From IMG/VR virus record IMGVR_UViG_3300044981_000223, positions 1 to 43,734 of that record: a stretch of 43,734 bases of DNA; one strand, written 5' to 3'. Positions 2,451-25,011 of the stretch are shown in pieces. This stretch comes from a virus. The position numbers and the translations under genes are program-made. The notes under the pieces were generated by a model, which worked only from the letters and a program-made list of their open reading frames with translations, was not told the DNA's origin and did not search any database. Numbering within the stretch: position 1 is the first letter of the stretch; each line of letters starts with the position of its first letter.

Positions 2451-2815
2451 TATGCAAGTCCAAAGTAATGATCGAGGTCAGCGTGCAGTCGCTCGTGGTA
2501 TTGCATCCACGCCTGAAGCTGCTGGCGGTCATCAAAGTCAAGACTCGATAAGCCCACCGTCGGTGACTGCTCACCCGTGCCTACGATGAGGCGCAACGTC
2601 TTGTGGCGCGTCGCGTGACGAGCGAACCAGTCAGGTGTCAGCGCGCCAGTCAGGTCCATAGCCGGCAGCGATATACCCTGCTTGCTCGCCGCCTTGTCGT
2701 ACGCGAGGTGCTTTAGCCAGTGCTGCATCTTGAACTGACGCTCGGAGGAGGTGCGCGCGAGCGGCCAGAAGAGGGCCGAGGTCGATGCGAGCGCGGATGT
2801 AGTGTTGAGTGTCAT
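2450..2815 (-). CDS. Small virion-cluster protein of unknown function, 121 aa
   Basis: The ATG start overlaps the stop of the nozzle-like gene (ATGA), and its own stop overlaps the next start (TAATG), so it is a coupled operon member. The protein is mixed alpha/beta. Residues 20-45 are basic and aromatic (ERQFKMQHWLKHLAYDKAAS), and the C-terminus is helical and rich in His, Asp and Gln. There is no signal peptide, membrane segment or recognisable motif. Its place between a tail nozzle and a fibre would suit a tail-assembly or head-completion factor, but nothing in the sequence shows this directly. Confidence 0.7.
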   Translation of the reverse strand: MTLNTTSALASTSALFWPLARTSSERQFKMQHWLKHLAYDKAASKQGISLPAMDLTGALTPDWFARHATRHKTLRLIVGTGEQSPTVGLSSLDFDDRQQLQAWMQYHERLHADLDHYFGLA

Positions 2816-4434
2816 GTGTTGGGCAACGGGCTCCAGCGCGGACCGAGTTTGTAGTCGAGCCCGAGCGTGTGCAGCTCAAGGTTATACCCTGTCGCCTGAA
2901 GCCGCAGCCCAACGTGGCGAGAGTACATCGCTCCTGCCGGCGCGCCCATCGCGAGGGTGAGCCCGGGTGAGATCCAACTACCCATCACGTTTCCTGAGTT
3001 GATCCACTCACCTTGGACGCCGGCCGAGTTCTGCCACTCACCGATCGAAACAGGTGGCGTCGCGGTCGGTGCGAGTATGCTCTGCGTCTGCGACTCAACG
3101 TAGAGACCGAAAGATGTGCCGTAACTGTAGATGTCCGACTCGACGCCGACCTGAATCACTTCCTTCAGAGCAAACTCATCCTCCATCGGATAGAGCTTCG
3201 TCCAGGCTGTGATTGTGGGGTACGTCGCCGTCGAGCCAAAGAGCTGATAGAGCTGGTTGCCTATGAATCCAAAGAGCGACGGGACGTTGGAGACGAGCCC
3301 AGTGACGATAAAAGTCAGCGCGCCGTAGTTCGCGAACCACCACACATCTGTCGTCACATCAACGCCACTGTTCGCATTCGTCGCGTCCGTCGAGAACCAA
3401 AGTGCCACGATCTGATTGGAGCCGAACACCGGATCGTTCAGGCGCTTGATGAGGAACGCCCCGCACAGGATGTTTTCAACCACGACCTGGCCGGCCGAAA
3501 CGTTCTGCGCTGGATCGCGGTACTGCCACGTGCCGTCGATGTCGCCCGAGATCTTCGGTGAGTCCACGCCGACCAACGTATGTACGCCGTAGGGGGAGGC
3601 GAACATGATGTTGCGGTCGTACGGGATGATGGACGCCGGCTGGTTCGAGCCGATGAGCGCTTGCAGGTTCGTGTTTGTGAACACAGGCGTCGGAGGATTC
3701 GCGCCCGAGGGCACGTACACGTCCGAGATCGCGTTGATCCCCGTGACGGTGAAGATGTAGAGGTAGCCGTTCGCCGCGATCAACCTTTGGATGTTGGAGC
3801 GGATCGTCGGGTCCGTAAGGTTAATAAAGGCCGCCCCGTTCGCTGCTGTCCAGTAGTTGGTAGCGCCTGCGGTTTGGTACCCATCGACCCCGGAGCAGTA
3901 AAGGACACGCCCCGCCGCGATCCAGACCCGCCCGCCGTAGACAGCAATAGAGTTCCCCGAACTGGGAGCTCCGGTCCCGTTGATGATGGCAAACGTCGTT
4001 CCGTCATAGTAGTAGTACCCTGTTGAGTCGATGAATAGAATCGCGGTGTCGTTCCACTGCGTGCACTGCGAGCCTGCGCCAGACAGGAGCGTGCCAGAGT
4101 TGATCAACGCTGAGGTTTGCGCTGCGATGTTGTACAGGAACACCTTGCCGTTGGTGGCGAAGTTGACCAAGTACTCAACGTTGTTGAGGTTCAGCCCTTG
4201 CGACCAGTAGATGAAGTCTGAACCGTAGTTGACCAGGCTCGCAGAGATGTTCGGCACGACGTGTGCGTTCTGCGGGCCGATTGGGATGATGTTTTCGAGG
4301 TTGTAGAAATAGTCATCCGGGATCGCGGTGCGCGAGGACTGAGTGTTGACTCCGTTGAACGACGTGAAGTAGCGCTGCAGGAGCTTGCGCGTGTCCTTCT
4401 CGGCGGCAGGATTGCCTTGCGGAATCTGCGGCAT
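2812..4434 (-). CDS. Tail nozzle / stabilisation-like protein (beta-propeller-like), 540 aa
   Basis: The preferred start is the ATG at 4434, which overlaps the upstream stop (TAATG). An in-frame TTG at 4482 would add 16 residues but overlap the adaptor gene by 49 bases. The protein begins with a charged segment (AAEKDTRKLLQRYFTSF), then has many short beta repeats with aromatic-glycine turns, such as YYYYDGTTFAIINGTG and VYGGRVWIAAGRVLYCSG. This pattern is typical of podovirus nozzle and DNA-stabilisation proteins (P22 gp10, T7 gp12 type). The genes for adaptor, nozzle and fibre follow in the expected order. The product should close the tail channel below the adaptor ring. The fold call comes from repeat pattern and synteny. 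Confidence 0.65.
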   Translation of the reverse strand: MPQIPQGNPAAEKDTRKLLQRYFTSFNGVNTQSSRTAIPDDYFYNLENIIPIGPQNAHVVPNISASLVNYGSDFIYWSQGLNLNNVEYLVNFATNGKVFLYNIAAQTSALINSGTLLSGAGSQCTQWNDTAILFIDSTGYYYYDGTTFAIINGTGAPSSGNSIAVYGGRVWIAAGRVLYCSGVDGYQTAGATNYWTAANGAAFINLTDPTIRSNIQRLIAANGYLYIFTVTGINAISDVYVPSGANPPTPVFTNTNLQALIGSNQPASIIPYDRNIMFASPYGVHTLVGVDSPKISGDIDGTWQYRDPAQNVSAGQVVVENILCGAFLIKRLNDPVFGSNQIVALWFSTDATNANSGVDVTTDVWWFANYGALTFIVTGLVSNVPSLFGFIGNQLYQLFGSTATYPTITAWTKLYPMEDEFALKEVIQVGVESDIYSYGTSFGLYVESQTQSILAPTATPPVSIGEWQNSAGVQGEWINSGNVMGSWISPGLTLAMGAPAGAMYSRHVGLRLQATGYNLELHTLGLDYKLGPRWSPLPNT

Positions 4435-5096
4435 TACCGCGGCACCGAGGCGTATGGGTTCTGCACCATACGAGTATTCCAAGCTTTGCTGCAGCGGCGC
4501 AGGATCTCTTGATACAGGTCAAAGAAGTACTTCGCCTCACCTTGCGCCTGCAATTTGAGCTTCGCCTTGTACGCGGCGTAGTACTGCACCGGCTCCTGGA
4601 ACGGAGCTGGGATCGGTTCGAGGTCCGTGTCGAGCACGAGCGGTTGCGGGACGATCGACATATCCCACTCGACGCCGTAGTTCTGATTGGGGACCGGTGC
4701 GATGTAGATCTGATTCGCACCCATGCGCGCCCAGGCGACCGGCCAGTCGAGGTAATTGACCCAGCCGCGAAGGAAGGCGGTCAACTGCGTGTACGCCCAG
4801 TTCTTCATGACGTAGCGCTCGTTGTTCACGATGCACGAGAGTGACATCGTGTCGATGATCGACGTGTTGAACGGGGTCGGGAGCGTCGTCGCGTAAGGGT
4901 AGAGTTCCTGCCCCGCGACCCAAAGCAGCGTCGGATAAGCTGCGGTCGTTACGACCTGGCGGAGAGCTTTCGTCTCCTGGGCTACGCGATTACGCGCCTC
5001 GTTGATGTAGTTCGCGAGGGAAGCCTGCGACCACATCTGCGCCAGTGGGTCATTCAGGAGGTCCTGGACTTGTGGGATGTAGGTGCTGTAGAGCAC
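4434..5096 (-). CDS. Head-tail adaptor protein, 220 aa
   Basis: The start is a GTG directly after the upstream stop (TGAGTG), with a GGAAGAAG ribosome site just ahead. The N-terminal helices include an INEARNRVAQETKALRQ stretch, the kind of helix seen in podovirus adaptor proteins (T7 gp11, phage SU10 adaptor type). A central beta region holds Trp/Tyr-rich strands (YIAPVPNQNYGVEWDM). The C-terminal helix (QYYAAYKAKLKLQAQG) is also typical, as these proteins often end with a YAAYKAKL-like helix. About 200-220 residues is normal for the family. It would form the ring joining portal to nozzle. Position upstream of the nozzle-like gene supports the call. Confidence 0.75.
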   Translation of the reverse strand: MLYSTYIPQVQDLLNDPLAQMWSQASLANYINEARNRVAQETKALRQVVTTAAYPTLLWVAGQELYPYATTLPTPFNTSIIDTMSLSCIVNNERYVMKNWAYTQLTAFLRGWVNYLDWPVAWARMGANQIYIAPVPNQNYGVEWDMSIVPQPLVLDTDLEPIPAPFQEPVQYYAAYKAKLKLQAQGEAKYFFDLYQEILRRCSKAWNTRMVQNPYASVPR

Positions 5097-5642
5097 TCAC
5101 CGCTTCTTCCCTATGTTCTGCTCGACGCGGCGCGGCATGACCGGCTGATTGGCCAGGGGGTCCTCGGGACCCAGGGGCGGAGTTCCCTGGGTCCCGGATT
5201 CCCCTTGCGGACCGGGGCTGCCGGGCGACGCAAGTTCGGTTGACTCCGGCAGCACCTCGATGGCCGGCGCACGGTTGTCATCGAGCACGCCATCAGGAGT
5301 TCTGCCTCGAATGACGCGCACGTTGGTGCCGAATGGCGGGACGGGCTCGATTGAGATCTCTTTCAACTTTCCGAGCGCGTACTTCATGTCGCGCTGAAAG
5401 TTGACCCAGTTCAGGCGCAGGAACGCGCGCTCGCGAACCTCGGTCGCCTCGCGCTGCGTGTACTGCTTGTCTGGATCGAGCCAGCCGAAGACGTGAGTCG
5501 CCACTACCTTGTGCACGTCGAGGTACCGACCCGGAGCCCACGTGTAGGGCTTGTCGTCGTACCTGGAGTCGATCTCTTCGGAGGAATGGTTCGTGATGCG
5601 CACGAAGTCCTCGTAGTTCAAAAGCAGCGAGCGCTCTGCCAT
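5097..5642 (-). CDS. Head-region structural protein with short collagen-like segment, 181 aa
   Basis: The ATG at 5642 lies one base after the preceding gene, and the stop is followed at once by the adaptor GTG. Residues 1-115 are charged and helical with aromatic residues (YTWAPGRYLDVHKVVATHVFG). Residues 133-150 contain a short Gly-Xaa-Yaa run (SPGSPGPQGESGTQG), a collagen-like element often found in phage structural proteins. The tail is basic (RRVEQNIGKKR). No enzyme motif is visible. Lying between capsid-associated and adaptor genes, it is probably a head-completion or connector component. The exact role is unknown. Confidence 0.7.
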   Translation of the reverse strand: MAERSLLLNYEDFVRITNHSSEEIDSRYDDKPYTWAPGRYLDVHKVVATHVFGWLDPDKQYTQREATEVRERAFLRLNWVNFQRDMKYALGKLKEISIEPVPPFGTNVRVIRGRTPDGVLDDNRAPAIEVLPESTELASPGSPGPQGESGTQGTPPLGPEDPLANQPVMPRRVEQNIGKKR

Positions 5643-5643
5643 G

Positions 5644-6351
5644 TCAATTCACCACGCTCAGAGTTGAGGTTGCGGTCGTGCCGTTCGCGAACACCGCTCC
5701 CCACGCGGGCGCCAGGAATGTGCCGTTGGTGGCAGACGCCGCGATGATCGTAGTCCACGTTGGCGCGGTCGCCGGAGTGTACCCGCCGGGCAGGGAGGCC
5801 GTGGACAGAGGGTCAAGGATCAAGGCAACCTGAGCAAGATCAGCCACGACATTGCAGTTTGCGCCGAGGATAGCGTACACGTACGCCATCTCAAGCTGCG
5901 GAGGCGGCTCGCCCGTGACCACTGAGGAGATCGTCTGCGTGGGTCCGCCCGCAAATCCCGAGGCTGAGCTCGCCGTGTAGGGCGGATAGAACACCGGGAT
6001 CACGGTCATCGAAGTGACGGTCGCGGTCGAGATCGTCGTGTAGATCGTGAACGTGGTCGTCGATGGGATCGACAGGATCCGGAACACGTTGTTGATGAGG
6101 ACACCGGTCCCGGTGATCGCCGAGGTCGAGCCGCCAAAGGTCACGAAATAATTCGGCGGCACACCGGCGGCCGGAGTCAGCGTCAAGCCGTGCGCAGCGT
6201 TCGTCGTGATCGTGCAGATGCCGCCGGCCGAGAGGGTGGCCGAGTTGGGGTTCGAGAACGTGGCGCCGGCACCCGCGGGGATCACGAACTGGGCGATCGA
6301 GAGCTTCGGTTGCAGGTCAAGGCCGAAGGTCGGGAAACGTAAGACTGACAT
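5644..6351 (-). CDS. Capsid-adjacent beta-rich structural protein, 235 aa
   Basis: The ATG at 6351 has a strong ribosome site (GGAGG, six bases upstream). It starts 12 bases after the capsid gene and is probably produced in high amounts. The sequence is Thr/Ser/Ala-rich with alternating hydrophobics, indicating a beta fold. Residues 50-110 contain a sandwich-like core (VTFGGSTSAITGTG, TTTFTIYTTIST), and the C-terminus (WTTIIAASATNGTFLAPAWG) is hydrophobic. There are no catalytic motifs. Position right after the major capsid gene and the strong ribosome site fit a head decoration or minor head protein. I do not recognise a named family. Confidence 0.7.
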   Translation of the reverse strand: MSVLRFPTFGLDLQPKLSIAQFVIPAGAGATFSNPNSATLSAGGICTITTNAAHGLTLTPAAGVPPNYFVTFGGSTSAITGTGVLINNVFRILSIPSTTTFTIYTTISTATVTSMTVIPVFYPPYTASSASGFAGGPTQTISSVVTGEPPPQLEMAYVYAILGANCNVVADLAQVALILDPLSTASLPGGYTPATAPTWTTIIAASATNGTFLAPAWGAVFANGTTATSTLSVVN

Positions 6352-6363
6352 GTTTCGGCCTCC

Positions 6364-7398
6364 TTAAATGGTGTTGTAGAGGAAGCCAGTACTGCCCACG
6401 GTACTCACCGTACCGACCCGCACCGTGGTCCGTGGCTTCGAGCACACCAGTTCGAGCAGGCTCACGATGCCGCCGATGAAGCCGATCTGGTACACGGGCA
6501 GAAGCGATTCGAACCCTGTGAACGAGAAATTCGCCATCGAGTGGAAGTAGAGTTGCATGTAGTTCGAGTTCCAGATGTAGACCACTCCTTCCGGGCAGTA
6601 CGGGTCGCAGTAGAGCGGCACCCCTGCGATGTCGATGGCGCGGAACAAGGCGCGCGGGCGGTCGGCATCGGAATCAAACCCGGTTCCGGGGCTGATCTGG
6701 TAGCTCTCAAGCCCGGCGTAGTCGTTCGCGACCAGCTTCTCCCAGGTCCCCATCCCGGTCATGGCGCAGGTCGGCATCTCGGCGCCGTACTTCTGCGCGC
6801 CCATCATGTACTGCAGTAGCAGCGCGCGCGTCGGGGCGACGGCGCCGGCGGAGTACACCTTGCCGGACCAGAACGTGCTCGCTGAGCGGTTGATGTTGCC
6901 GTAGATGCTCGTGTTCGTGCCGTCGTCGATCGCTGCGTTGAAGCCGATCAACTGCTGGGCGTTCGAGATGTTGACGTAGAGCGCGTTTGAGAGCACGTCC
7001 ACAGTCGAATTCGTCGCGTCGTTGAACACCGCCTCGATGCGCGGGACGATCGCGTGATCGGCCTGAATCGCCGCCTCGAATCCGTAGAACGGAATCGGCG
7101 TGACCAGCGACTTTAAGTTGAACTCCGCAGGCTGGATGCCCTGGATGTTCGCCGGCTGGCTGAACGAGCCATCGAATCCAGTCCACTGCGGGATCGTCAT
7201 CGCCTGACCCTGCACGGGGACAGTGACCGATGAGATGCCGCCCGACGCGGTCTTCGCGTGCTGCATCAAAGCGGCGATTGTCGGAGACGCAGAGTAGAGT
7301 TGGACTACTACGGTCGGCAAAAAAGCCCTGCGCGTTATGGCCAAATATTCCTGATATTGGGGCCCGGCCGGAGGCATGACGCCAGATGAGAATGGCAT
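6364..7398 (-). CDS. Major capsid protein (HK97-fold candidate), 344 aa
   Basis: An ATG at 7398 follows a modest GGA ribosome site. Length, the lack of any motif except extended beta and helical segments, and position after the scaffold candidate and portal fit a major capsid protein. Typical signs are the N-terminal arm (ITRRAFLPTVVVQLYSASP), a central E-loop/P-domain-like region (FYGFEAAIQADHAIVPRIE), and a C-terminal hydrophobic domain (LLPVYQIGFIGGIVSLLELV). The 201-base leader at 7399-7599 has no gene. It includes a small hairpin (GCTCT-TAGT-AGAGC, 7419-7432) and might hold a capsid promoter or RNA control element. The call is strong by synteny and moderate by sequence alone. Confidence 0.8.
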   Translation of the reverse strand: MPFSSGVMPPAGPQYQEYLAITRRAFLPTVVVQLYSASPTIAALMQHAKTASGGISSVTVPVQGQAMTIPQWTGFDGSFSQPANIQGIQPAEFNLKSLVTPIPFYGFEAAIQADHAIVPRIEAVFNDATNSTVDVLSNALYVNISNAQQLIGFNAAIDDGTNTSIYGNINRSASTFWSGKVYSAGAVAPTRALLLQYMMGAQKYGAEMPTCAMTGMGTWEKLVANDYAGLESYQISPGTGFDSDADRPRALFRAIDIAGVPLYCDPYCPEGVVYIWNSNYMQLYFHSMANFSFTGFESLLPVYQIGFIGGIVSLLELVCSKPRTTVRVGTVSTVGSTGFLYNTI

Positions 7399-7599
7399 TG
7401 ATTTTCCTAGATAAATGCGCTCTTAGTAGAGCTGGATGTTGATACGTAATCGATCACGAACGTACCTCGAACTGATACTCTTCCCGCATCTACTGATGAT
7501 CAGCACTCTCACTGCCGCTGGTTACGTCGTGTCCAAACAAGAAACGTGCTCAACTCTCGGGACTAAGCGCCCGATTGCTGGCAGCCCTTTGTGATCGAC

Positions 7600-8118
7600 T
7601 CAGATGCCGCGCGGATGAAACTCGCGCTGGATCTTCTCAGCTTCCCTGGTGCGCCAGCCGATCGGATCCGCGAGCATCTCCTTGAAGTTCGGGATATCGG
7701 CTGGGCGCAGCGAATCGGATGTCGGCTCGGCGAGCGCGGCATCTTGGCGCAGTACCCTGATTGCGAGGTCGTAGTTCGGAGCGGTCGGCGCTAGACCATG
7801 CGTCTCCATGAGCTTGATGACGGCTTCGAGTTCGAGCCCGGCATCTCGCACCTTCGCATGCAGCACCTCGAGCGCGCGCTCGGCTTCGATCTTCTGGACC
7901 TTCGCGGCGAGTACCTTGACCTTCTCGTCGGCCTCCTCGCGGACCTTGGCGACCGAATCCTTGATCTCGAGTTCGGGGAAGGTGAGCTTGGCGTCTCCCT
8001 TCTTCAGCAGGCGCTGAGCTGACTCGCGCGTCTCGGGATTCGCAAGCAATTGCTTGGCGAGGTTGCCGAGGTTGATCGCCTGCTTTTGCTCTGGCGTGAG
8101 CTCCTCCAAGGAGGCCAC
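7600..8118 (-). CDS. Scaffolding protein candidate, 172 aa
   Basis: The GTG at 8118 lies one base beyond the previous stop (TGA-C-GTG). The protein is highly charged and helical. Residues 50-100 form a clear coiled coil rich in Lys, Glu, Val and Leu (KVREEADEKVKVLAAKVQKIE), with no cysteine. The C-terminal third is short and ends in basic and hydrophobic residues (REAEKIQREFHPRGI). Small, coiled-coil, charged proteins encoded directly before the major capsid gene are usually scaffolds that guide procapsid assembly and then leave. The order portal, scaffold, capsid supports this. No protease is seen nearby, so the scaffold may exit intact. Confidence 0.65.
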   Translation of the reverse strand: MASLEELTPEQKQAINLGNLAKQLLANPETRESAQRLLKKGDAKLTFPELEIKDSVAKVREEADEKVKVLAAKVQKIEAERALEVLHAKVRDAGLELEAVIKLMETHGLAPTAPNYDLAIRVLRQDAALAEPTSDSLRPADIPNFKEMLADPIGWRTREAEKIQREFHPRGI

Positions 8119-8119
8119 G

Positions 8120-8332
8120 TCATTTCACCGGCACGCGTCGCTGCGTCGACTCGGGGGTCTTCACGTCCATGAATTTCGAGGATTCAAAGCCGCGCGCTGA
8201 GGCGGAGTGTGCGCCGCCGATCTCCATGTAGCGCGGAAAATTCGAGATATTGCCGTGCTTCAGGTCGTTCGAGAGCGGATCGCGGATCGTCAGCGAGTCG
8301 CCGGGCATGAACAATCGTCGTTGAGCGGGCAT
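8120..8332 (-). CDS. Small head-operon protein, 70 aa
   Basis: An ATG-initiated frame eight bases after the preceding stop, ending one base before the scaffold start. The protein is basic and polar with a central GGAHSASARGFESSKFMDV region and a basic C-terminus (STQRRVPVK). No motif is recognisable. Tight packing in the head operon between two structural-type genes argues that it is real. It may be a small virion or assembly factor. Confidence 0.6.
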   Translation of the reverse strand: MPAQRRLFMPGDSLTIRDPLSNDLKHGNISNFPRYMEIGGAHSASARGFESSKFMDVKTPESTQRRVPVK

Positions 8333-8340
8333 GTGTCGTC

Positions 8341-8697
8341 CTACGCAGCCTGCGGCTGCTGCTGTTGACCTTGGGGCTGCGGCTTCGGCGGCTCGCCAGG
8401 ACCTTGCAGGGTTGCGAGCATGCGCTTCAACTCGGCGAGCGAGAATTCCTGGACCTCTTCCTCGTGCTCGCCGAACTCCTCGGTGAGCTTCGCGCGCGCA
8501 GACAGCATGACCTTGCCTTGCTTTGACTGCACGCCGAATTTCTCGATGCCGCGATCGAGGAGCTTCATGGCGTGGAAGGCGTCGAGCTTGGCCGATGCGA
8601 GATCGCCCTCGGGCGTCTGCGGGGTCAACATGCCCGTCGATGACGGCGCGTTACCGACCGGATCGGGTTCGTTGGGCATCGTTGCCGTTTTGGCCAT
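8341..8697 (-). CDS. Charged, Gln-rich head-operon protein, 118 aa
   Basis: I place the start at the ATG at 8697 (MAKTATMPNEPDPVG). A second ATG follows six codons later, and an in-frame TTG at 8856 would add 53 Cys/Ser/Arg-rich residues that do not look coding. None has a convincing ribosome site, so the start is uncertain. The middle is a charged helix (RAKLTEEFGEHEEEVQEF), followed by another helix (LAELKRMLATLQ) and a Pro/Gln-rich tail (PKPQPQGQQQQPQAA). It lies just downstream of a transcription terminator and first in the scaffold/capsid segment. A head-assembly role is possible but not shown. Confidence 0.6.
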   Translation of the reverse strand: MAKTATMPNEPDPVGNAPSSTGMLTPQTPEGDLASAKLDAFHAMKLLDRGIEKFGVQSKQGKVMLSARAKLTEEFGEHEEEVQEFSLAELKRMLATLQGPGEPPKPQPQGQQQQPQAA

Positions 8698-8731
8698 GAG
8701 GGCGGAGGCTACGGTGCAGCGCGTCGAATTG

Positions 8732-8896
8732 TCAAGTTTCCCCGCGCGGTTCATCCTCCTGACAACCGCAGCAGGACCAGCACTCGACGTTACACCATGG
8801 GCACACGCGCTCGATCTTTCCGCAGTCACCGCAGAAGGTGTAGAGCAGACCGACAAAAAAAAGGCCAGCGGGGGAGCTGGCCCGAGTGGGTTTCAC
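8732..8896 (-). CDS. Candidate cysteine-rich micro-protein, up to 54 aa
   Basis: A frame running from a GTG at 8896 to a TGA at 8732 has ten cysteines in its last 35 residues, in CxxC-type pairs (FCGDCGK, VCPWCN, ECWSCCGC) typical of a zinc ribbon. The first 18 residues are the translation of the terminator hairpin (SSPAGLFF), so either the start is really later, at a CTG near 8845, or the terminator has been absorbed into the gene. There is no clear ribosome site. Cysteine pairs this dense are unlikely by chance, yet a leader this odd keeps confidence modest. If real, it would be a zinc-binding phage micro-protein. Confidence 0.4.
   Translation of the reverse strand: MKPTRASSPAGLFFVGLLYTFCGDCGKIERVCPWCNVECWSCCGCQEDEPRGET
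8855..8882 (-). terminator. Intrinsic terminator after the portal segment
   Basis: On the minus strand a perfect 7-bp GC-rich stem (GGCCAGC paired with GCTGGCC, loop of six bases) is followed directly by eight T residues. This is a classic rho-independent terminator for transcripts coming from the portal gene. It separates portal and the 14-aa peptide from the scaffold and capsid genes, so the latter need read-through or their own promoter. Confidence 0.85.
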
Positions 8897-8923
8897 GGAT
8901 GAAAGTCAGTCAGGGCCGAAAAT

Positions 8924-8968
8924 CTAGCGGTGCTTGCGACCGCGCCGACCGCGCTTTGGCATCGACAT
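8924..8968 (-). CDS. 14-aa highly basic micro-peptide
   Basis: Read on the minus strand, an AGGAGG ribosome site sits eight bases ahead of an ATG. This opens the 14-residue peptide MSMPKRGRRGRKHR, followed by TAG. Eight of 14 residues are Lys, Arg or His. The stop is 42 bases before the terminator at 8855-8882, so the peptide ends the portal transcript. No other frame explains so strong a ribosome site here. It could be a nucleic-acid-binding micro-protein or a leader-type element whose translation affects termination. Either role is inference, but the translation signal is visible. Confidence 0.5.
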   Translation of the reverse strand: MSMPKRGRRGRKHR

Positions 8969-9059
8969 TGGCGAGTCCTCCTCGTCTGGAGTGGCAGCCC
9001 TTTGCCTCCGCACCCATCGCTGGGGCGATCAGGCAACCGCTCGGTCGCCTGATTGGATA

Positions 9060-10853
9060 CTACTGCTGAGTCTCGGGCGGCGCAAGCGCACCGGGTGGCA
9101 CCGGGCCAGGCGGCGCTGCGCCATTGCCGACCGGCGGGCCGTGTCCGCCGTGCGCGCGCTTGGCGGCGATCTGCGCCATTTTCTCAGCGTGCTCCTGCTG
9201 TTGCTCCTTCGCTTCGGCGGGCTCTATCTTCTCGCGCAAGTCCTTCTTCAGCGCCGAGCGCATCGGGATGTCAATGAGGTCGAGCAACTTCGAGCGGTCG
9301 ATCACTTTCATCTGCGCGAGCGTGAAAGCTTTCTGCTCGTGGTTCTCAACAAACACCGGCGAGTTTGAATGCCCGTCGACCTTGGCCTGAAAGTCATCGG
9401 GGAACTGGTGCGCCTGGAACGGCTGGCCCTGGTCTGAGTCCTCGCGCATCGGACGCTTGTCGTACTTCTTTAAGATCTTGACGATGAGCTGCGCGACGCC
9501 ATCCAAACAGTCCTCGACAGTCAACGCGCGGTCGCGAATGCGCGTCGAGCCCAGCTGCGACATGAGCTGCGCGTGACCTTCCGAGCGCACACCGTGAGCC
9601 GACTTGCCTTGATTGATCGCCGGCAACCCAGATAACTCGTCCATCATCTGGTCAATCACTTCGATGTCGTGCCACAGGTCCGCGGGCAACTCGGGGGCGA
9701 CGGATTCAACCTTTGCCGCGGGCGAGTCGACCGATAGCATGCCCGAAGGCGTATCGAGCGCGAGCACCATCTCATCGGCGATGCCGCCGTTGGTGCCGGT
9801 GACGTAGGAGGGCGGGTGTGCTTGCTTTCTCAACAGGTGCAGGATGTCGCCCATACGCTCGTTGCGCAGATCCTGCAGCGGCACGAGCTTTTCAACTTCG
9901 GAGTGGCCCCAGAAATAATCGTAAGCCGGACTCATCGAGACTTCGACATACGGGATCGTTTGGGAAATGAAGATCTTCTCGATCGGCCGATCCCACACGT
10001 TGATCTCGGGGTTGATGTAGGTCACGACGCGGTAGTCTGCGAGCTCATCGTCGTACACGTAGAGCTCGTGCCCCTCGATCATGTCTTCCTTGACTGCGGG
10101 TCGGTACAGCGTCGCAGTGGGCTGCGTGAAGATCGAAGCATTACCGGTGATCGCATCGCCCTGGACAGCGGTCACGATGAGGCGGTCGATCGGAGCGGCG
10201 TCAGCCATCACGTCAGACCCTGAACCGCCCTGCGTCATCGACATGATCTCTTCGATCTCGGCGTCTTTCTTTCCTCCCGCCTTCAAATTGTTGCGCAGCT
10301 CTGACTTTGACATGTGGAAGCGTTCGGCGAAGGCTTCCTGGCGTTCGAGCCCATCCTTGTCTTCTCTTAAAACCCCGAAGTTGTGCGGTTCGACGATAAA
10401 AGCCTGTATTTTAAGGCCTTCCTCGAGTTCTTTGAGTTCATTGATACGCTTGAAAACCTTCGGCCTGAATTTCAGCAGCGTCTTGCCGTACGGTGCCGAC
10501 CAGCGCAGCGCCTGTTTGAATTGCTGGTCGATGTCGCAGTCGTGCCACTCGGCCTGCAGCAGTTCGGTTAAGGGTGCGACCATCACCTGGTCCTCGCCCG
10601 GCACCGTGACACCAAGGTCGATCGTAAAGCGCGTCGTCTCGGGCGAGAACATGAAAGAGCACAAGGTGTCGATGTGCGAGTAGACCTTGTTGAATCTCGT
10701 CTGCTGCGTGAGGATCCGATCCTCGCAGCCGAAGAGATAGTACGAGCGCATCTGCTGATTGAACTGACGACGGTTATCGCACGTCGCCATGCACTTCTGA
10801 ATCAGGTCGATATAGAAGAGATGCCGCTCCGCAGCATCGCCCGGAATTCTCAT
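9060..10853 (-). CDS. Portal protein, 597 aa
   Basis: The ATG at 10853 overlaps the previous stop (ATGA). Length is in the portal range. The N-terminus holds helical wing-like segments (RSYYLFGCEDRILTQQTRFNKVYSHIDTL). A central region (YDYFWGHSEVEKLVPLQDLRNERM) and a stem-type helix (HDIEVIDQMMDELSGLPAIN) resemble podovirus portals. The last 60 residues are a charged coiled coil and a Pro/Gly-rich tail. Neighbours are head assembly genes downstream. The dodecameric portal sits at one capsid vertex and passes DNA. The call rests on length, helix pattern, the GHSEVEKL and DLRNER motifs and order relative to scaffold and capsid. Confidence 0.8.
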   Translation of the reverse strand: MRIPGDAAERHLFYIDLIQKCMATCDNRRQFNQQMRSYYLFGCEDRILTQQTRFNKVYSHIDTLCSFMFSPETTRFTIDLGVTVPGEDQVMVAPLTELLQAEWHDCDIDQQFKQALRWSAPYGKTLLKFRPKVFKRINELKELEEGLKIQAFIVEPHNFGVLREDKDGLERQEAFAERFHMSKSELRNNLKAGGKKDAEIEEIMSMTQGGSGSDVMADAAPIDRLIVTAVQGDAITGNASIFTQPTATLYRPAVKEDMIEGHELYVYDDELADYRVVTYINPEINVWDRPIEKIFISQTIPYVEVSMSPAYDYFWGHSEVEKLVPLQDLRNERMGDILHLLRKQAHPPSYVTGTNGGIADEMVLALDTPSGMLSVDSPAAKVESVAPELPADLWHDIEVIDQMMDELSGLPAINQGKSAHGVRSEGHAQLMSQLGSTRIRDRALTVEDCLDGVAQLIVKILKKYDKRPMREDSDQGQPFQAHQFPDDFQAKVDGHSNSPVFVENHEQKAFTLAQMKVIDRSKLLDLIDIPMRSALKKDLREKIEPAEAKEQQQEHAEKMAQIAAKRAHGGHGPPVGNGAAPPGPVPPGALAPPETQQ

Positions 10854-11353
10854 TTCTGGCCCGGCTGCTTCATGATGACGGTCGCCCTACGCAGATGCGA
10901 GCGCGCGCCTTTTTGGATCTCACTCACAGGGATGTACGCCGGCACGTCGCGATTGCCCTGGCGGGTCGTCGGCGGCAACAGTCCCATCGCCTTCGGGTTC
11001 AATGCCGGAGCAGGCTCGCCGCGGTCGCGCCAGCCCTGCGGCACGAGGTCTGGCTTCCAGTACGGTGCGCCCTTATCACCGATCACTCGAGCGCCACCGG
11101 ATTCGATGCGCGTGTTCGACATGACCGAGGATCCTTCCTTATCCCCGCGCACGTCAGTCATGTTGTAGTCCTGCGCGATTTGCCGCCGGATCGCATCGGT
11201 TCGTGTGGTGACGCCGTGACGTATGGACGGCGGAGTGCGGAACTCCAACGAGACGTACTGCGGGGCACATCCGAATGGACACGAGGGGTGGTCCTCGGTC
11301 GACTCGAACTCGTGTTCGTGAAAATTGCAAACCCACTCTCGATTGACCGCCAT
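10850..11353 (-). CDS. Protein of unknown function with N-terminal zinc-knuckle cysteines, 167 aa
   Basis: First gene of the leftward late block, starting at an ATG at 11353, with its stop overlapping the portal start (ATGA). The N-terminus has Cys9, then a His/Glu-rich segment, then Cys25 and Cys29 (CNFHEHEF then CPFGC), which could bind one metal. The rest is polar, basic and Pro/Gly-rich (MGLLPPTTRQGNRDVPAYIPVSE). I recognise no family. Being coupled to portal, it may act in head morphogenesis or packaging. A candidate promoter lies just upstream (11362-11390). Confidence 0.7.
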   Translation of the reverse strand: MAVNREWVCNFHEHEFESTEDHPSCPFGCAPQYVSLEFRTPPSIRHGVTTRTDAIRRQIAQDYNMTDVRGDKEGSSVMSNTRIESGGARVIGDKGAPYWKPDLVPQGWRDRGEPAPALNPKAMGLLPPTTRQGNRDVPAYIPVSEIQKGARSHLRRATVIMKQPGQK

Positions 11354-15711: not shown

Positions 15712-17565
15712 GTGAGCCTTGATTTCGAGAACTTTCTATCATTCACCAAAGCTTTGAGGATCAGCACTAAAGAGCGTGGGATGCTCACGCTGGGAGACAA
15801 CCTACTCGGCACACAGGGTATGCTTTTTGATCAAATACAGCAGGGACTGCAGGACGGCATCCACGAGTTTGTCGTGTTGAAGGCGCGGCAGTTGGGGATA
15901 TCTTCGGCTTTGCTAGCGTGGGACATGTACTACGCGTTCAGGTACCCGGGAATTTCTGGGGCAATCGTGACTCACGACGAACCAGCACGCGAGCAATTCA
16001 GGGCCACTCTTGAATTGTATTACGCTGGCCTGCCGGACGAATGGAAGCAAGACATACCGCAGCACAACCGTAACCAAATAGTCTTCGCCAATAGGTCGAT
16101 GCTGCAATACAAGGTGGCGGGCTTAATAGAAACTTCGAAGAAGGTTCTAGGTCGATCTTCAGCTATCTCTTACGGGCACATGACCGAGTGTGCCTATTGG
16201 GGAGATCCATCTCAGATAAAGAGTCTTAAGTCGAGCATGGCCCAACAGAACCCCATGAGGTTCTTCGTGTGGGAGTCTACCGCTAACGGATTCAACCACT
16301 GGTACGAAATGTGGGAAGACGCCAAGGCCTCAAGCTCCGTGCGCCCGATCTTCATCGGCTGGTGGGCACACGATTACTACCGCGTCAAACGCGACGGCCG
16401 CGTCTGGCGCCAGTACTGGGGCAAGAAGGGCAAGCTCACCGCCGCCGAACGCGAACGCATCGAGCGGGTGAAGGCCGACTACGATGTCGAGCTCACCGAT
16501 GAGCAGATCGCCTGGTACCGCTTCGAGCTCGCCGAGCACATGGGAGGCGATGAGATGGCGATGTGCGCCGAGTACCCCTCGCTCCCCGATGAGGCCTTCG
16601 TCGCCACCGGCTCAAAATACTTCACCGGCGCCTCGATGACGAAGGCGTACCAGATCGTGCTCGGGGAACCGAAGTGCCAGTCCTTCCGCGTCGAGTTCGG
16701 CCAGGAGTTCGCCGAAACCAATCTCGCCGAAGTGAATGATGCTCGAGCCACACTGCGCGTCTACGAAGAACCCGACCCCAAGGGCTTCTACGTCCTGGGC
16801 GCCGATCCCGCCTACGGCTCATCCGATGATGCCGACCGCTTCGCTGCAACCGTGCTGCGCGCCTACGCCAATCGCCTCGAGCAGGTCGCTGAATTCTGCA
16901 CCACCGATCTTTCCCCCTACACCTTCGCCTGGGTCATCGTGCTCCTGGCCGGCGCCTATCGACCGTGCCTGTACAACATCGAACTGAACGGCTCTGGCAC
17001 CGCCGTCTTCCAAGAGATCGATAACCTGCGCCGCGCCGCCAACCGCAGCGTGCTCCCCGGCGCCGAGCGCTCGGCGCCGAACCCACTTCTTAAAGACGTG
17101 ACGCGCAAGATCTCTGACTTCCTCTACGCGCGCGAGGACTCCATCACCGGACGCCCCCAGGGCAAACACACCATCACCACCGAGCGCGTGAAGGAAACCT
17201 ACATGGCCCTCATGAAGGATAACTTCGAACGCGGCATCCTCACCGTGCACTCACGCTTCCTCCTCGATGAGATGAAGTCCGTCGTGCGCGATGGCGGTAG
17301 CATCAGCGCCGAGGGCGATGCACACGATGACCGCGTGATCGCGACCGCACTCGCAGTGAAAGCCTGGCAGGATCAACTGCGCAGCATGCTGATCCAGCGC
17401 AACGTCATCTATATCCCACCGCAACTGCGCACCAAGGATGAACCGCCCGCCGAGACGGTCCTCGGCCGCAGCGTGCGCAATTACCTCCAGGCCTACGGAG
17501 TCCTGCCCAAACCCGTCAATCCAAACAGCGGCGTGCGTACGTATATTCCGCAACCGCGACGCTAG
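15712..17565 (+). CDS. terL: Terminase large subunit, 617 aa
   Basis: GTG start with an AGGA ribosome site. The N-terminal ATPase has a Walker-A-like KARQLGISS at residues 57-65, a GHMTECAYWGD Walker-B-type region near 155-165 and an ESTANGF coupling motif near 188-194. The C-terminal RNase H-like nuclease has Asp365 (VLGADPAYGSSDD), Glu424 (YNIELNGSG) and a late AHDDRVIA Asp near residue 543. It cuts and packages phage DNA at the portal. The first 200 codons use AGG and ATA and are lower in GC, while the rest is GC-rich with CGC/ATC. The break lies at the ATPase-nuclease junction. The gene is transcribed away from portal and overlaps the HNH gene end by four bases. Confidence 0.9.
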   Translation: MSLDFENFLSFTKALRISTKERGMLTLGDNLLGTQGMLFDQIQQGLQDGIHEFVVLKARQLGISSALLAWDMYYAFRYPGISGAIVTHDEPAREQFRATLELYYAGLPDEWKQDIPQHNRNQIVFANRSMLQYKVAGLIETSKKVLGRSSAISYGHMTECAYWGDPSQIKSLKSSMAQQNPMRFFVWESTANGFNHWYEMWEDAKASSSVRPIFIGWWAHDYYRVKRDGRVWRQYWGKKGKLTAAERERIERVKADYDVELTDEQIAWYRFELAEHMGGDEMAMCAEYPSLPDEAFVATGSKYFTGASMTKAYQIVLGEPKCQSFRVEFGQEFAETNLAEVNDARATLRVYEEPDPKGFYVLGADPAYGSSDDADRFAATVLRAYANRLEQVAEFCTTDLSPYTFAWVIVLLAGAYRPCLYNIELNGSGTAVFQEIDNLRRAANRSVLPGAERSAPNPLLKDVTRKISDFLYAREDSITGRPQGKHTITTERVKETYMALMKDNFERGILTVHSRFLLDEMKSVVRDGGSISAEGDAHDDRVIATALAVKAWQDQLRSMLIQRNVIYIPPQLRTKDEPPAETVLGRSVRNYLQAYGVLPKPVNPNSGVRTYIPQPRR

Positions 17566-17962: not shown

Positions 17963-18325
17963 TCAGTCACTCAGACCTCCGATGCGCATTACGCGCTCTA
18001 ATACCTCATCGTACTTCGAATCATCGAGCGCGGGCATCTCGAACGGAAGACCCAACGAGCGCGCCGTGAACTCACACGAACTCGGAAGACGCCCAGTTTC
18101 TATTAACACCCGGGCCATCGCTCCCTTGTCCAGCGGATTAACCGCGGGGGCGGAAGAGGCCTCAGGCTTCTTCTGCGCAGGCTCCTTGTACTCGCGCTTC
18201 TTGTGATAGGCGAGCGCAAGGCCAATTCCGTGTGAAAAGCTCCCTCGTCCTATCAGACGCGCGTACTCCCACTCCTCAGTCGTGAGCCTAACGGTCGCCG
18301 GGACCTTTTTAAGTGCGTTCGGCAT
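17963..18325 (-). CDS. Ribbon-helix-helix-like DNA-binding protein candidate, 120 aa
   Basis: The ATG at 18325 is chosen over a TTG upstream, because the added residues would cross the repeats at 18341-18376. The N-terminus (KVPATVRLTTEEWEYARLIGRGSFSHGIGLALAYHKK) has the strand-helix-helix rhythm of small RHH regulators. The middle is Lys/Pro/Ala-rich, and the C-terminal half is acidic and helical (LDDSKYDEVLERVMRIGG). Two 14-bp direct repeats lie just upstream, where an autoregulator would bind. It may repress its own operon with HNH. The similarity to RHH proteins is by pattern only. Confidence 0.55.
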   Translation of the reverse strand: MPNALKKVPATVRLTTEEWEYARLIGRGSFSHGIGLALAYHKKREYKEPAQKKPEASSAPAVNPLDKGAMARVLIETGRLPSSCEFTARSLGLPFEMPALDDSKYDEVLERVMRIGGLSD

Positions 18326-18376: not shown

Positions 18377-18663
18377 GAAAAAATTCTGCGGCGGGGCCCG
18401 ACTGGTGCCACCCAACCTTTCACTCGCTGCCCAATCTGCCCAATCTGGGTCCGGCGCGCTGGGCTCGCAGAGGGTTGTAACGAACTGTAACTCGCATAAT
18501 AACCATTATGTTAAGTCTCAAGTTGTTGAATACATTGATATTCGTGTGTTTTCTGGCGTGCGACTTACCCATTTGCGACCGCCGCCACAGCAAATGGCCT
18601 CGTACCGAGCTCCTGGCGCGGTGCAGCAAAAGTGTTGCCAGTATGGTGACACCATGTACACAC

Positions 18664-18856
18664 CTGTCAACACTCCAAGTCTTTGATTTCATTGGATTGT
18701 TCTCTGTGTTGACAGCTCACCACCTAGTTGGCGAAGAACTTGCGTAGTGATTCTCTCTGAATGCTCCATGCAGCCCATGTGAATCTTGGTTTCATACATA
18801 GGTACCTGTCTACACATAGAACATCTTAAGGATATCAGGGGCTTGCGTGTTGACAG
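18664..18856. repeat. Three copies of GTGTTGACAG (two direct, one inverted)
   Basis: The 10-mer is at 18664-18673 (minus orientation), 18706-18715 and 18847-18856 (plus). Exact copies this close together are unlikely by chance. They may be repressor or origin-binding sites, or -35 elements with non-standard -10 boxes. Confidence 0.5.
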
Positions 18857-18965
18857 TTGTTGCCAGGTAACCACCTTGACTTTGGTCTCGGAGTATGTTT
18901 AGGATTGATGGGCTCGGATTATGGTTTCATCATTTCAAACACTCACTGAGACTATGGAGAAGCAC

Positions 18966-19214
18966 ATGAGCACCGTCGCTGTTAGATTTCGTTTGCGTCC
19001 CATGCTGGACCTTCGTCGCAAGGAGGATGCCGAGGCGTATTTGGAAGCGAAGTGGCGTGCGTTTGTTAGAATGCGCGAGTGGAAGAGATTGAGAGCGCGG
19101 CTGTTGGAGCAGCCGATTAACAAGCCAGTCAGGACGGCTAATTACGTTGTGGCGTATTACTCGCCTGACCCTGAGCGTTATCGGGTGACATCGTCGGTGG
19201 CCTCTTGGCCATAA
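18966..19214 (+). CDS. Small basic protein, 82 aa
   Basis: The ATG at 18966 has a GGAGAAG ribosome site; earlier in-frame ATGs at 18921 and 18954 lack one. Residues 15-50 are a highly basic, amphipathic helix (RRKEDAEAYLEAKWRAFVRMREWKRLRARLLEQ). The C-terminus is more hydrophobic and Tyr-rich (NYVVAYYSPDPERYRV). There are no cysteines or known motifs. The stop codon is the first TAA of the decamer array. It may bind nucleic acid, but this is unproven. Confidence 0.6.
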   Translation: MSTVAVRFRLRPMLDLRRKEDAEAYLEAKWRAFVRMREWKRLRARLLEQPINKPVRTANYVVAYYSPDPERYRVTSSVASWP

Positions 19215-19270
19215 GCAGCCTTAATCGATCTTAAACGGCCTTAAGCAGCCATAAACGAGCTTAAAGCGGT
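19211..19270 (+). repeat. Six-unit 10-bp array, (A/T)TAA-based decamers
   Basis: Six consecutive decamers, each starting (A/T)TAA: ATAAGCAGCC, TTAATCGATC, TTAAACGGCC, TTAAGCAGCC, ATAAACGAGC, TTAAAGCGGT. Units 1 and 4 differ by one base. The 10-bp step is close to one helical turn, so the T/A steps all face one side. It lies between a stop codon and the secreted-protein ribosome site. It may be bent DNA, a phased protein-binding array or an RNA leader. Confidence 0.65.
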
Positions 19271-19295
19271 TTACTGACCCAGAGGAGAATCAAAC

Positions 19296-20000
19296 ATGAA
19301 ACGGATATGGTTATTGCTTACCCTCGTGGCGGTGCCGTGCTGGGCCGCGTACCCCGCCGGCATCTGGCAAGCCTCGAGCAAGACTGAGATCGTGACGTTG
19401 ATGGTGTTGCCCGATGGGTTGTTCTACGGTCAGGTCGCACTTGCGCCCGCGGGCTATGGCTGTGTGTATCTGATCGCGGGCAACTTTGTGCACGGCGGCA
19501 CGGCTTCGATAGAGGCCAACTACACCTCCCTGCAGTCCCCGTACCTCGAGCCGAGTGCGTGCAAGGCTGAAGGCGGCGGGGGAGCTGTAGCGAGCCTGAG
19601 CGGTGCGAGCCTCAAGCTCCTCGTCTCCACAACCTCGATGAAAGCGACCTGGCTCTTGGCGCCGCTGAAGGCGTACGACACACCCTCGAGCCTCACCTTG
19701 ATCGCGGGCCAATGGGTCGACCCTTGGACACAGCGGGTGGAGTATGTGTACACAGACGGCGCGTTTTCGGCATACGATCCGGCCTCGGGATGCTCTGAGG
19801 AGGGCTCGTATACAGTGGTCGATCCCGCGCACGCACTGTATGCGTTCGTGGAGACTCTGTCCGGCTGTGAGTCGATGGTGGCTGGCCTAAACGGCGTGCA
19901 GCTTCGCGGTGCAGCAACGATCGAGTCAGGCCGTCTAGCGCGCCAGGGGGCGTATGGGATGATCGGCGTCGCTGATGGTACCGGGGTTGCCCTGTACTAA
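19296..20000 (+). CDS. Secreted protein with signal peptide, 234 aa
   Basis: The ATG has a strong AGAGGAG ribosome site. Residues 1-18 form a Sec signal peptide (MKRIWLLLTLVAVPCWAA) with probable cleavage after Ala17 or Ala18. The residue before Cys15 is Pro, which argues against a lipoprotein. The mature part is beta-rich with repeated Gly/Ser/Thr, and its four cysteines (GYGCVYLI, PSACKAEG, SGCSEEG, SGCESMV) could form two disulfides in the periplasm. Its final base pairs overlap the convergent primase gene. Secreted proteins in phage control regions are often exclusion or host-surface morons, but no domain is recognised. Confidence 0.7.
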   Translation: MKRIWLLLTLVAVPCWAAYPAGIWQASSKTEIVTLMVLPDGLFYGQVALAPAGYGCVYLIAGNFVHGGTASIEANYTSLQSPYLEPSACKAEGGGGAVASLSGASLKLLVSTTSMKATWLLAPLKAYDTPSSLTLIAGQWVDPWTQRVEYVYTDGAFSAYDPASGCSEEGSYTVVDPAHALYAFVETLSGCESMVAGLNGVQLRGAATIESGRLARQGAYGMIGVADGTGVALY

Positions 20001-22222
20001 TCGTCCTTGGTGCTCGCCAGGGCGCGCTGTACGGGCCCGTCGCGCCGCCACACCGTGAGGACGCGGTGCTTGATGCGCAGCTTGGTGCGGATCCAGCCGA
20101 GGTCTCTCAAGATCCCACCGGCGCGCAGCTTCGCGCTCATCGATTGATCCCTGGCGGATTCGAGTTCGAGCGCGTACACGAGCACCTCTCTGAGCGAGAC
20201 CTCATCGCGCTTTTCGATGTACAGGGCGATCGCGTCCGTCCAGATGTCATCCGGACGGCGGGCGAGCTGCTCGGCGCGCGCGTCGCTAAGCGGGACATCC
20301 CACCAGGATTCCCCGGCCAGATAGCGCTGCAGGGCTTCTGCGAAGATTTGCTCGCGATTCTCGGTGATGTACTCGACATCGATCGTGCCGCAGGCGATGG
20401 GCAGGAACCGCCGCGCGCCGGTGTCATCGGCGTTCCACTCCTCGGAGTTCGTCGTGGCGGCGAACACACACATGCGCGGGTGGGTCGAGGGCATGCGCTC
20501 GTAGGGTGCGCGGTAGGAATCCTCGCGGCGCGTGATGACGGACTTCGCGATCTCAAGGGCGATACCCTTCAACTGCGAGAGCTCCGATAGCTCGAGGAAC
20601 CACTTGCCCGCCATGCACAGGTAGAAATCCCGGTCGCCCAAGTGATACGAGGGCTCATCGTGCCAGGGCAGTGTCGCGAGCGCCCTTAAGGCCGAGGTCT
20701 TGCCGATCCCCTGGCCACCCTCGAAGACGGGCAGCATGTCGAGCTGGCAGCCGGGCTGCATGATGCGCGCGACGGCGCCCACGATGAAGCAGCGGCCGAC
20801 GGCTTGCGTGTACGGGTTAAATTGCGCCCCCCAACCGCGGTGCAGCAACTGCGGCAGGCGCGGGACTTGGTCCCAGGTGAGGCCGGTGAGCCATTCGCGC
20901 ACGGGGTTGCGTGTCGTGCGGCGCGCGTGGCGGATGACCGCATCATGCACGATGTGCTTGCGCAGGCCCTTCATCTCGATCGAGGCCTGACAGAAGCATT
21001 GCAGTGCGATCGTGTCGCTATCTTCCCACGAACGGGGTCGATCGGCGGACATCGTCATGATTCTGACGGCGAACTCGTCATACCAGATGTTACCGAAAGC
21101 ATTGGCTTCGCGGGAGAGCGCGGCCAGGATGCGACAGACGTTCTCGGTGTTCTCGTAGGGGTTACCCTGCTTGTTCTGATCGAGGCCCCAGTCGAGCCAG
21201 ACCTGACGCTGCGACTGTGGCGGTGGGGGCTGTGTTCCACGTGGAACGTCCCCGGGCGGCGCGCTCTCGGGCCTGATCGGAACGACCACCGGTGCGGCGG
21301 CGAACTCGGCGCGGTACTGCTCGATGAATTCGCCCACATCCGCCCACTGCCACCCACTTTTGATGGCATCGACGATGTCCCATTTCGCGGGCTTGGAGTC
21401 GGGCGGGTAGGACAACACGGTGACAGTGGCGCCGAGCCCTTTGAGTCTGCGCCCGGCCTCGATCATCGCGGCGCGTCCGGCCGCATCGTTATCCGGCCAC
21501 AGCAGGCAACGGCGCGCGCGCAGGGCGGACCAATCCGCGTGCTTGGCGTTGGATGCCCCGCCGGACCAGCTCGTCGCCACGGCCTCAAGGGACTGTTGGG
21601 CGATGAGTTCTGCTGCCGCATCGGCTTTCTTCTCGCCCTCGAAGATCCACACCTCGTGAGCGCTCGCGGCGAGGAGTTCGTTCAAGCGATACAGCGCGTG
21701 GGGCTTCGGCAGTGACTTGGGCACCCACTGGCGGTCGATTTTGCGCCACTGCTGGAACGTCTTGCCGGCCTCTTGGCCGATGCTGGGATCCGCGGCGAGC
21801 TCGTACCGACAGATCACGTGGGTCGTCTCACCGGCGGCGTTACGGTAGCGAAAGCGGCTTGAGGCGGCGCCGAGTTTCTTGGAGGCCGGCGGCCAGTCGT
21901 TCTCGGGGATGAGTTCGATGCGATCCTGAGGTTCGCCGGTGGGCGGTGACAGGCGGCGCGCGGCCTCGAGTTGGGATATGCCGTGGATCGCAGCGTACAA
22001 AGAGACGTAGTCGCCGCCCTTAAGATGCTCGGCTGCCCGGTCGAGCCATCGGCCTGTGGGAATGTCAACGCTGAGGCTGTGGCCGCTCTCGCCCTGCAGG
22101 TTCCCCACCTCGAAGCGCACACCGGTCGCCTTGCCCTTGGGGAACCACTCGCGCAGCAGTTCGCGCCCGCGCGCGGCGAGTGACGCATTCAGCGCAGCGA
22201 AGTCAACCGCCGGGGAGAGCAC
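19997..22222 (-). CDS. Primase-helicase: TOPRIM plus VirE-type SF3-like ATPase, 741 aa
   Basis: GTG start three bases after the VRR-NUC gene. The N-terminus has a degenerate CHC2-style domain (WLDRAAEHLKGGDYVSLYAAIHG) without zinc cysteines. A TOPRIM domain follows at about 188-290, with catalytic Glu195 (IFEGEKKAD) and an LLWPDNDAAG Asp pair near 240-248. The C-terminal ATPase has Walker A GGQGIGKTS at 502-510, Walker B WFLELSE near 541-547, and the GARRFLPI arginine motif near 602-609, as in virulence-associated E helicases. Such proteins prime and unwind DNA. It is the only replication enzyme here, with no DNA polymerase in the window. Confidence 0.85.
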   Translation of the reverse strand: MLSPAVDFAALNASLAARGRELLREWFPKGKATGVRFEVGNLQGESGHSLSVDIPTGRWLDRAAEHLKGGDYVSLYAAIHGISQLEAARRLSPPTGEPQDRIELIPENDWPPASKKLGAASSRFRYRNAAGETTHVICRYELAADPSIGQEAGKTFQQWRKIDRQWVPKSLPKPHALYRLNELLAASAHEVWIFEGEKKADAAAELIAQQSLEAVATSWSGGASNAKHADWSALRARRCLLWPDNDAAGRAAMIEAGRRLKGLGATVTVLSYPPDSKPAKWDIVDAIKSGWQWADVGEFIEQYRAEFAAAPVVVPIRPESAPPGDVPRGTQPPPPQSQRQVWLDWGLDQNKQGNPYENTENVCRILAALSREANAFGNIWYDEFAVRIMTMSADRPRSWEDSDTIALQCFCQASIEMKGLRKHIVHDAVIRHARRTTRNPVREWLTGLTWDQVPRLPQLLHRGWGAQFNPYTQAVGRCFIVGAVARIMQPGCQLDMLPVFEGGQGIGKTSALRALATLPWHDEPSYHLGDRDFYLCMAGKWFLELSELSQLKGIALEIAKSVITRREDSYRAPYERMPSTHPRMCVFAATTNSEEWNADDTGARRFLPIACGTIDVEYITENREQIFAEALQRYLAGESWWDVPLSDARAEQLARRPDDIWTDAIALYIEKRDEVSLREVLVYALELESARDQSMSAKLRAGGILRDLGWIRTKLRIKHRVLTVWRRDGPVQRALASTKDD

Positions 22223-24048: not shown

Positions 24049-25011
24049 ATGGATCATCCAATCGCACGAACAAGGGTCTCTACGCTGCGTCTTGAGCAGG
24101 TCATGGTGTGGTCATTGAAGTCGGGCGCGCATACTCAGAACGACTCTGGCAACGCCTGCGTCATGGAGGCCGTTGCATACGTCGCCGGCCGAGATTGGGG
24201 TGATGCGCCGCCGTGCGTTGACCCTGTGCTCGGTTCCTTCATGCGTGCATGGAATGACGGATTACCGACAGACGCGGACCGAGACCGGCTGCTCAAGCCC
24301 TTCATCCCGAAACTCATCGGCACGAAGTTTGATGAGGCCTTGGAGCAGCGCCGAGCCTTTATGGCGATGGACTGGGTGATCCGTGTCTGTACACCGAAGT
24401 TTTTAGATCTCGTCCCAGCGCTCGCGTCGCACGCCTTGGCGCTGAGAAATTTGGAGGAGATAGCGGATGCGGCCGGTCTCTTAGCCGCTGGCGAGAAGCT
24501 GAGCGCAGCGCGCAAGGCTTCGGCCGCCGCGTGGGACGCCGCGTGGGACGCCACGTGGGCCGCCGCGTGGGCCGCCACGTGGGACGCCGCGTGGGCCGCC
24601 GCGTGGGCCGCCACGTGGGCCGCCGCGTGGGACGCCGCGAGGGCCGCCGCGAGGGCCGCCGCGAGGGACGCCGCGTGGGCCGCCGCGTGGGCCGCCGCGT
24701 GGGACGCCGCGTGGGACGCCGCGTGGGCCGCCGCGAGGGACGCCGCGTGGGCCGCCGCGCGGGACGCCGCGAGGGACGCCGCGTGGGCCGCCGCGAGGGC
24801 CGCCGCGTGGGACGCCGCGTGGGACGCCGCGTGGGCCGCCGCGAGGGACGCCGCGTGGGACGCCGCGCGGGACGCCGCGAGGGCCGCCGCGGGAAATTTT
24901 CTCAAGCCCACAGTTGAGTGGCTACAAGTCAGCGCCGTCGATCTCGTCAACCGAATGATCGAAGCAGGTCCTGAGACTGAAGTCACGGAGCAGGCGGCGT
25001 GCCTACCGTAA
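24049..25011 (+). CDS. Tetrad-repeat protein with (A/D)AA(W/R) array, 320 aa
   Basis: ATG start with a strong GAAGGAG ribosome site. The N-terminal domain (1-150) carries GNACVMEAVAYVAG, DWGDAPPCVDPVLGSF and EQRRAFMAMDWVIR, a pattern I know from actinophage proteins of unknown function with similar Ala-rich tails. Residues 159-282 are 30 near-perfect four-residue units, alternating Asp/Ala at position 1 and Trp/Arg at position 4, then a degenerate unit and a 40-residue end. It would make a long helix with a drifting Trp/Arg stripe. The gene lies upstream of YqaJ and overlaps it by 13 bases. Function is not known. Confidence 0.8.
   Translation: MDHPIARTRVSTLRLEQVMVWSLKSGAHTQNDSGNACVMEAVAYVAGRDWGDAPPCVDPVLGSFMRAWNDGLPTDADRDRLLKPFIPKLIGTKFDEALEQRRAFMAMDWVIRVCTPKFLDLVPALASHALALRNLEEIADAAGLLAAGEKLSAARKASAAAWDAAWDATWAAAWAATWDAAWAAAWAATWAAAWDAARAAARAAARDAAWAAAWAAAWDAAWDAAWAAARDAAWAAARDAARDAAWAAARAAAWDAAWDAAWAAARDAAWDAARDAARAAAGNFLKPTVEWLQVSAVDLVNRMIEAGPETEVTEQAACLP
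24523..24894 (+). repeat. 12-bp tandem repeat array, 31 units, in-frame
   Basis: Units follow G(C/A)C GCC (G/A)CG (T/A/C)GG, 30 complete tetrads plus one degenerate unit. Differences between units fall at just three base positions. The unit length is a multiple of three, so slippage would change copy number without breaking the frame. All three forward frames and at least one reverse frame are open through it. Confidence 0.9.

Follow-up and report, generated by a model that had tools for sequence, protein, structure and literature searches.

Iterons are usually 17–22 bp long, and type III toxin-antitoxin loci (ToxI-like) carry tandem RNA repeats upstream of a protein gene. The parC centromeres of ParMRC systems are built from 10- or 11-bp direct repeats that are bound by the ribbon-helix-helix protein ParR (PMC9426499). 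Proteins of the MvaT/H-NS type favour DNA with multiple TpA steps, and interruptions by GC are tolerated by MvaT (PMC4466236). Lastly, TATAAACGCC is named as a nucleosome-positioning decamer where PMC3795714 cites Widlund 1999.

Here, we analyzed a decamer array in the DNA of an uncultured phage; the whole 43,734-nt stretch under study is referred to as the window. Most simply, the array would be one of the short tandem repeats of phage intergenic DNA. It shares with these minisatellites its head-to-tail units, the duplication of a 30-bp block, and a non-coding position, and dozens of CWTAA arrays with steps of 9, 10, and 11 bp exist in IMG/VR; it differs in that its spacers are more diverged than those of the other step-10 arrays retrieved. 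Like parC, the array consists of direct repeats of 10 bp that precede a gene, but no window protein tested matched ParM or ParR, and no adjacent parM or parR gene was matched among the nearby proteins scanned. With TATAAACGCC the array has in common a 10-bp step, an (A/T)TAAACG-like core, and a GC-rich spacer; however, that decamer belongs to a eukaryotic nucleosome context, whereas the window units are degenerate and imply no histone. As in type III toxin-antitoxin loci, tandem repeats precede a protein gene. However, the array is only 2 × 30 bp and had no Rfam match, and the downstream protein looks exported and is unrelated to the toxins in the libraries searched; it had no family match, ToxN-like or other, in PHROGs, Pfam, or NCBIfam.

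Six units, CATAAGCAGC, CTTAATCGAT, CTTAAACGGC, CTTAAGCAGC, CATAAACGAG, and CTTAAAGCGG, follow one another in this order, each of them opening with C(A/T)TAA. The preliminary description had reported a six-unit array with an exact 10-bp step, and we recovered the same array in a frame that starts one base further upstream (19210 instead of 19211). The units are not uniform: unit 1 resembles unit 4, unit 2 resembles unit 5, and unit 3 resembles unit 6, with only seven differences when the two halves are aligned. TRF reported a period of 30 with a score of 90 (2 copies at 86% matches) and additionally a period of 10 with a score of 41 (5.9 copies at 65% matches). The array is therefore best described as a three-decamer block that is present twice. 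It fills most of the 81-bp leader before the ATG at 19296. Its placement between a stop codon and a ribosome site, as noted before, holds, except that the array overlaps the stop: the TAA at 19212–19214, within decamer 1, terminates the small upstream ORF. TAA and TTA in the array close all three frames on each strand, six in total, therefore readthrough from the upstream ORF ends in the array, before the ribosome site. Such six-frame closure is unremarkable for 60 bp (~5% by a simple hand estimate).

Table 1. Coordinates of the array and of the features around it.
Feature	Position	Strand	Remarks
Source record			43,734-base virus record of IMG/VR, phage, uncultured; the single record is the window
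Putatively non-coding control/origin region	18420..18920	.	GC 0.49 vs 0.61; TGTTGACAG-like sites
Small upstream ORF	18966..19214	+	82 aa from ATG after GGAG; open from ATG 18921, 97 aa
Decamer array	19210..19269	+	Six imperfect C(A/T)TAA-N5 units, exact 10-bp step, two 30-bp blocks
Ribosome-binding site AGAGGAG	19281..19288 (approximate)	+	Upstream of ATG 19296; good site by sequence
Orphan exported-protein gene	19296..20000	+	234 aa, apparent signal peptide, converges on primase gene
Primase-helicase gene (VirE-like)	19997..22222	-	Start of conserved replication module

The array is real and not a chance pattern, because its TRF score of 90 was never matched in 40 genomes simulated with an order-3 Markov model (maximum 63); adjacent head-to-tail copies are thus alike beyond chance, as in a minisatellite. 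CWTAA-N5-CWTAA occurs five times in the window, all within the array, against an expectation of 0.05. The six-fold run of TAA at step 10 is also the sole run of at least four TAA at steps 9–12 in the window and the related loci scanned. In eight simulated 43-kb sequences, runs of a 3-mer reached only 4–5 at any step between 5 and 40.

The genes on either side of the array are orphans in the collections searched. Searches of viral contigs, phage records, 20 related records, and genome contigs gave no homologue of the exported protein, and viral contigs gave none of the small upstream ORF (18921/18966–19214); nor did the locus have a DNA match in phage records, or the array, when searched by itself, one among phage or plasmid records. 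The GC content by codon position of the downstream gene (0.60/0.52/0.75) fits a real gene, and the signal peptide of its product was judged by eye from the sequence, not with a predictor. For the small ORF, the start at 18966 is more likely than that at 18921, judging from the upstream letters. The block with this ORF and the exported-protein gene looks like an accessory insertion. We noted CTGACCC(T/A)GAG direct repeats flanking the array (19165 and 19274) as candidate insertion scars, and set them aside because, within about 1 kb, chance alone should yield 11-mers that agree with one mismatch. On the minus strand, a 120-aa ORF (17963–18325) without a family match has an N-terminal part that may read as a ribbon-helix-helix-like DNA-binding domain (VPATVRLTTEEWEYARL...); its structure model is unreliable (pLDDT only 39.8), and the structure predictions, of pLDDT 39.8 and 33.8, were made without alignments. 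The window also encodes a terminase (15712–17565), a portal, a helicase, an exonuclease, and RecT.

To place the locus among relatives, we aligned the terminase, which yielded 80 loci; among 20 records searched, three (G001, G005, and G008) also have the primase, and a primase alignment added a fourth such relative, L281. G001, G005, and G008 share the module of primase, resolvase, and helicase with exonuclease and RecT. G001 and G005 further share an HNH gene with the window and cover the whole stretch from this HNH endonuclease to the primase, where they have other, unrelated small genes. This stretch contained no run of three TAA at step 10 and no comparable TRF array in either relative, and its 10-bp periodicity is weaker (19.0 in G005 and 18.5 in G001 vs 26.9 at the window array). 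G008 covers only 640 bp beyond the primase. The preliminary description had proposed that its reading would be refuted by a lack of decamer periodicity in relatives with the same flanking genes. The decamers are indeed missing from G001 and G005, but the genes directly beside the array are not conserved there, so the comparison is a partial test, negative in its outcome; it does not apply to those neighbours, because no homologue of them was detected. A near-identical phage in which decamer copy number could be compared was not found. L281 carries a different tandem array (L281:5592-5768), in which AGAGGAAAC-like units extend into the ribosome site of the gene that adjoins the primase and have GTTTCCTCT units, located at the 3' end of the primase gene, as their pairing partners. 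These repeats are predicted to form a very long hairpin (fold z -7.9), and the last unit is itself the adjoining gene's ribosome site.

Next, we asked whether a step of one helical turn is special among phages. Five-unit CWTAA arrays were found in IMG/VR in 64 stretches at step 9, 61 at step 10, and 60 at step 11 (54, 49, and 51, respectively, after removal of duplicates). Since the three steps are equally common, there is no sign that phage CWTAA arrays favour a spacing of one helical turn, and this control, which covers an entire viral collection, usefully warns against inferring function from a 10-bp step. Most of these arrays are nearly perfect minisatellites with near-identical tandem units, and no consistent gene context was seen on inspection of those from other phages. 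In the window array, by contrast, the mean spacer identity is 0.46, while the lowest value among the 49 distinct step-10 arrays is 0.56; some arrays at steps 9 and 11 are as divergent in their spacers, or more. The leading C and the TAA core nevertheless stay intact in all six units (4 of 10 columns invariant). When decay was simulated, the probability of at least four invariant columns ranged from 0.03 (star) to 0.16 (block duplication). The intact core between diverged spacers hints at selection to keep it, and no more.

The earlier claim that a T/A step recurs once per turn stands: there is one TpA per 10 bp, the spacers are G/C-rich, and nowhere else in the window is 10-bp WW/SS periodicity as strong as at the array (rank 2 of 43,674 overlapping 60-bp stretches; the top 30 stretches all overlap the array). 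For the companion suggestion of curved DNA, the outcome depends on the model. With Bolshoy wedges the predicted net curvature is 75 degrees (99.8th percentile), whereas Olson values give 5.4 degrees (8.9th percentile). Moreover, TTAA is not an A-tract, therefore curvature cannot be claimed for the array. Its DNA is possibly anisotropically flexible.

How, then, might the array have arisen? The best-supported explanation, to which we give about even weight, is a minisatellite that arose by slippage and has partly decayed, lying in the leader of an accessory (moron-like) gene. One decamer would have been multiplied by replication slippage, the resulting 30-bp block of three would then have been duplicated, and the copies would later have diverged in part, leaving the array as at most a passive spacer between two small genes that incidentally closes six frames. 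From the sequence we infer both a slippage origin and the lack of a selected, sequence-specific function. Consistent with this are the 30-bp duplication of 10-bp units reported by TRF, the few differences between the blocks, the equal abundance of arrays at steps 9 and 11, the lack of a phased array in the corresponding stretch of the replication-module relatives, and the unrelated tandem array before a ribosome site in L281. Two points run against it, namely the six intact TAA cores with their leading C despite the diverged spacers, and the location in a 5' leader ~385 bp from the GC-skew minimum, where cis-elements are expected. The main rival is a phased operator array, which we regard as possible though somewhat doubtful. 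A phage or host protein, for example a candidate ribbon-helix-helix protein or TpA-preferring nucleoid protein, would bind each CWTAA on one helix face, oligomerise, and repress or time expression of the exported protein. The exact step, the invariant core amid divergent spacers, the leader position, and the WW/SS phasing all suit an operator, as would the MvaT/H-NS-type preference for multiple TpA steps (PMC4466236) and the adjacent minus-strand ORF (17963–18325), which by our own reading is strand-helix-helix-like (pLDDT 39.8). Against it, promoter and terminator scans returned nothing at the array, no neighbour matched a DNA-binding regulator family, the window holds no further copy, the array is absent from the relatives that span the region, and step 10 is not enriched in phages. 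The preliminary reading of phased protein-binding sites thus keeps its phasing and leader position, but lacks a candidate binder and a special role for the 10-bp step. The fuller version, in which the phage carries an operator or nucleoprotein nucleation array that is in phase with the helix, has CWTAA as its core, and silences the exported-protein gene or times its expression, seems to us unlikely. Should the cores be bound in phase, the locus would offer a compact natural test case of how helix spacing governs the cooperative repression of a phage accessory gene; as only a decayed minisatellite, the array would matter little beyond annotation.

The other readings are less likely than an operator. 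One would make the array part of a replication origin, as iteron-like sites or as an unwinding element of the adjacent 18420–18920 region, and we consider this very improbable. Cumulative GC skew does reach its global minimum close by, at 18825, the lowest-GC stretches of the window include 18400–19300, IHF-like matches occur at 18676 and 18833, and a primase-helicase gene is near. However, the array and the skew minimum are 385 bp apart with a small ORF between them, and the minimum itself has other repeats: six TGTTGACAG-like sites lie within 235 bp (18633–18866) in both orientations, three of them exact, compared with three in the rest of the window. The array has neither TGTTGACAG-like nor IHF-like sites, and its 10-bp units are shorter than iterons generally are. 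No DnaA-box match was found near the minimum, no initiator was identified, and the TGTTGACAG-like cluster was not found in the fetched segments of relatives. The 18420–18920 region is itself a probable control/origin region and a better candidate than the array. At the RNA level, the repeated CCUUAA could pair with or shield the ribosome site, bind an RNA-binding protein, or act as an antitoxin RNA. The predicted fold allows CCUU from the array to base-pair with GAGG in the ribosome site; against this, the fold is not significantly better than shuffles (z -1.1), the Rfam scan gave no match at the array, and the exported-looking downstream product matched no toxin family, so that we hold an RNA element to be a slim prospect. 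An equally slim one is intrinsically curved or anisotropically flexible DNA that, like TATAAACGCC, would serve looping or packaging. The CATAAACGAG and CTTAAACGGC units are similar to that decamer, and the WW/SS amplitude tops the window; however, the two curvature models conflict, the array spans only ~5 turns, its phase would drift by ~85 degrees at 10.0 vs 10.5 bp per turn, and no such array was found in relatives. In every reading, any functional role of the array is one that we infer.

Elsewhere in the window, we noted ~30 copies of a 12-bp repeat at 24525–24891, within an ORF (24049–25011, plus strand) that had no Pfam match; they encode tetrapeptides of the AAAW/AARD/DAAW kind. Lastly, the portal and neighbouring structural genes (1575–11353) are on the minus strand, opposite the terminase (15712–17565), whereas the relatives carry them behind the terminase and on its strand; this is a module inversion in this phage.
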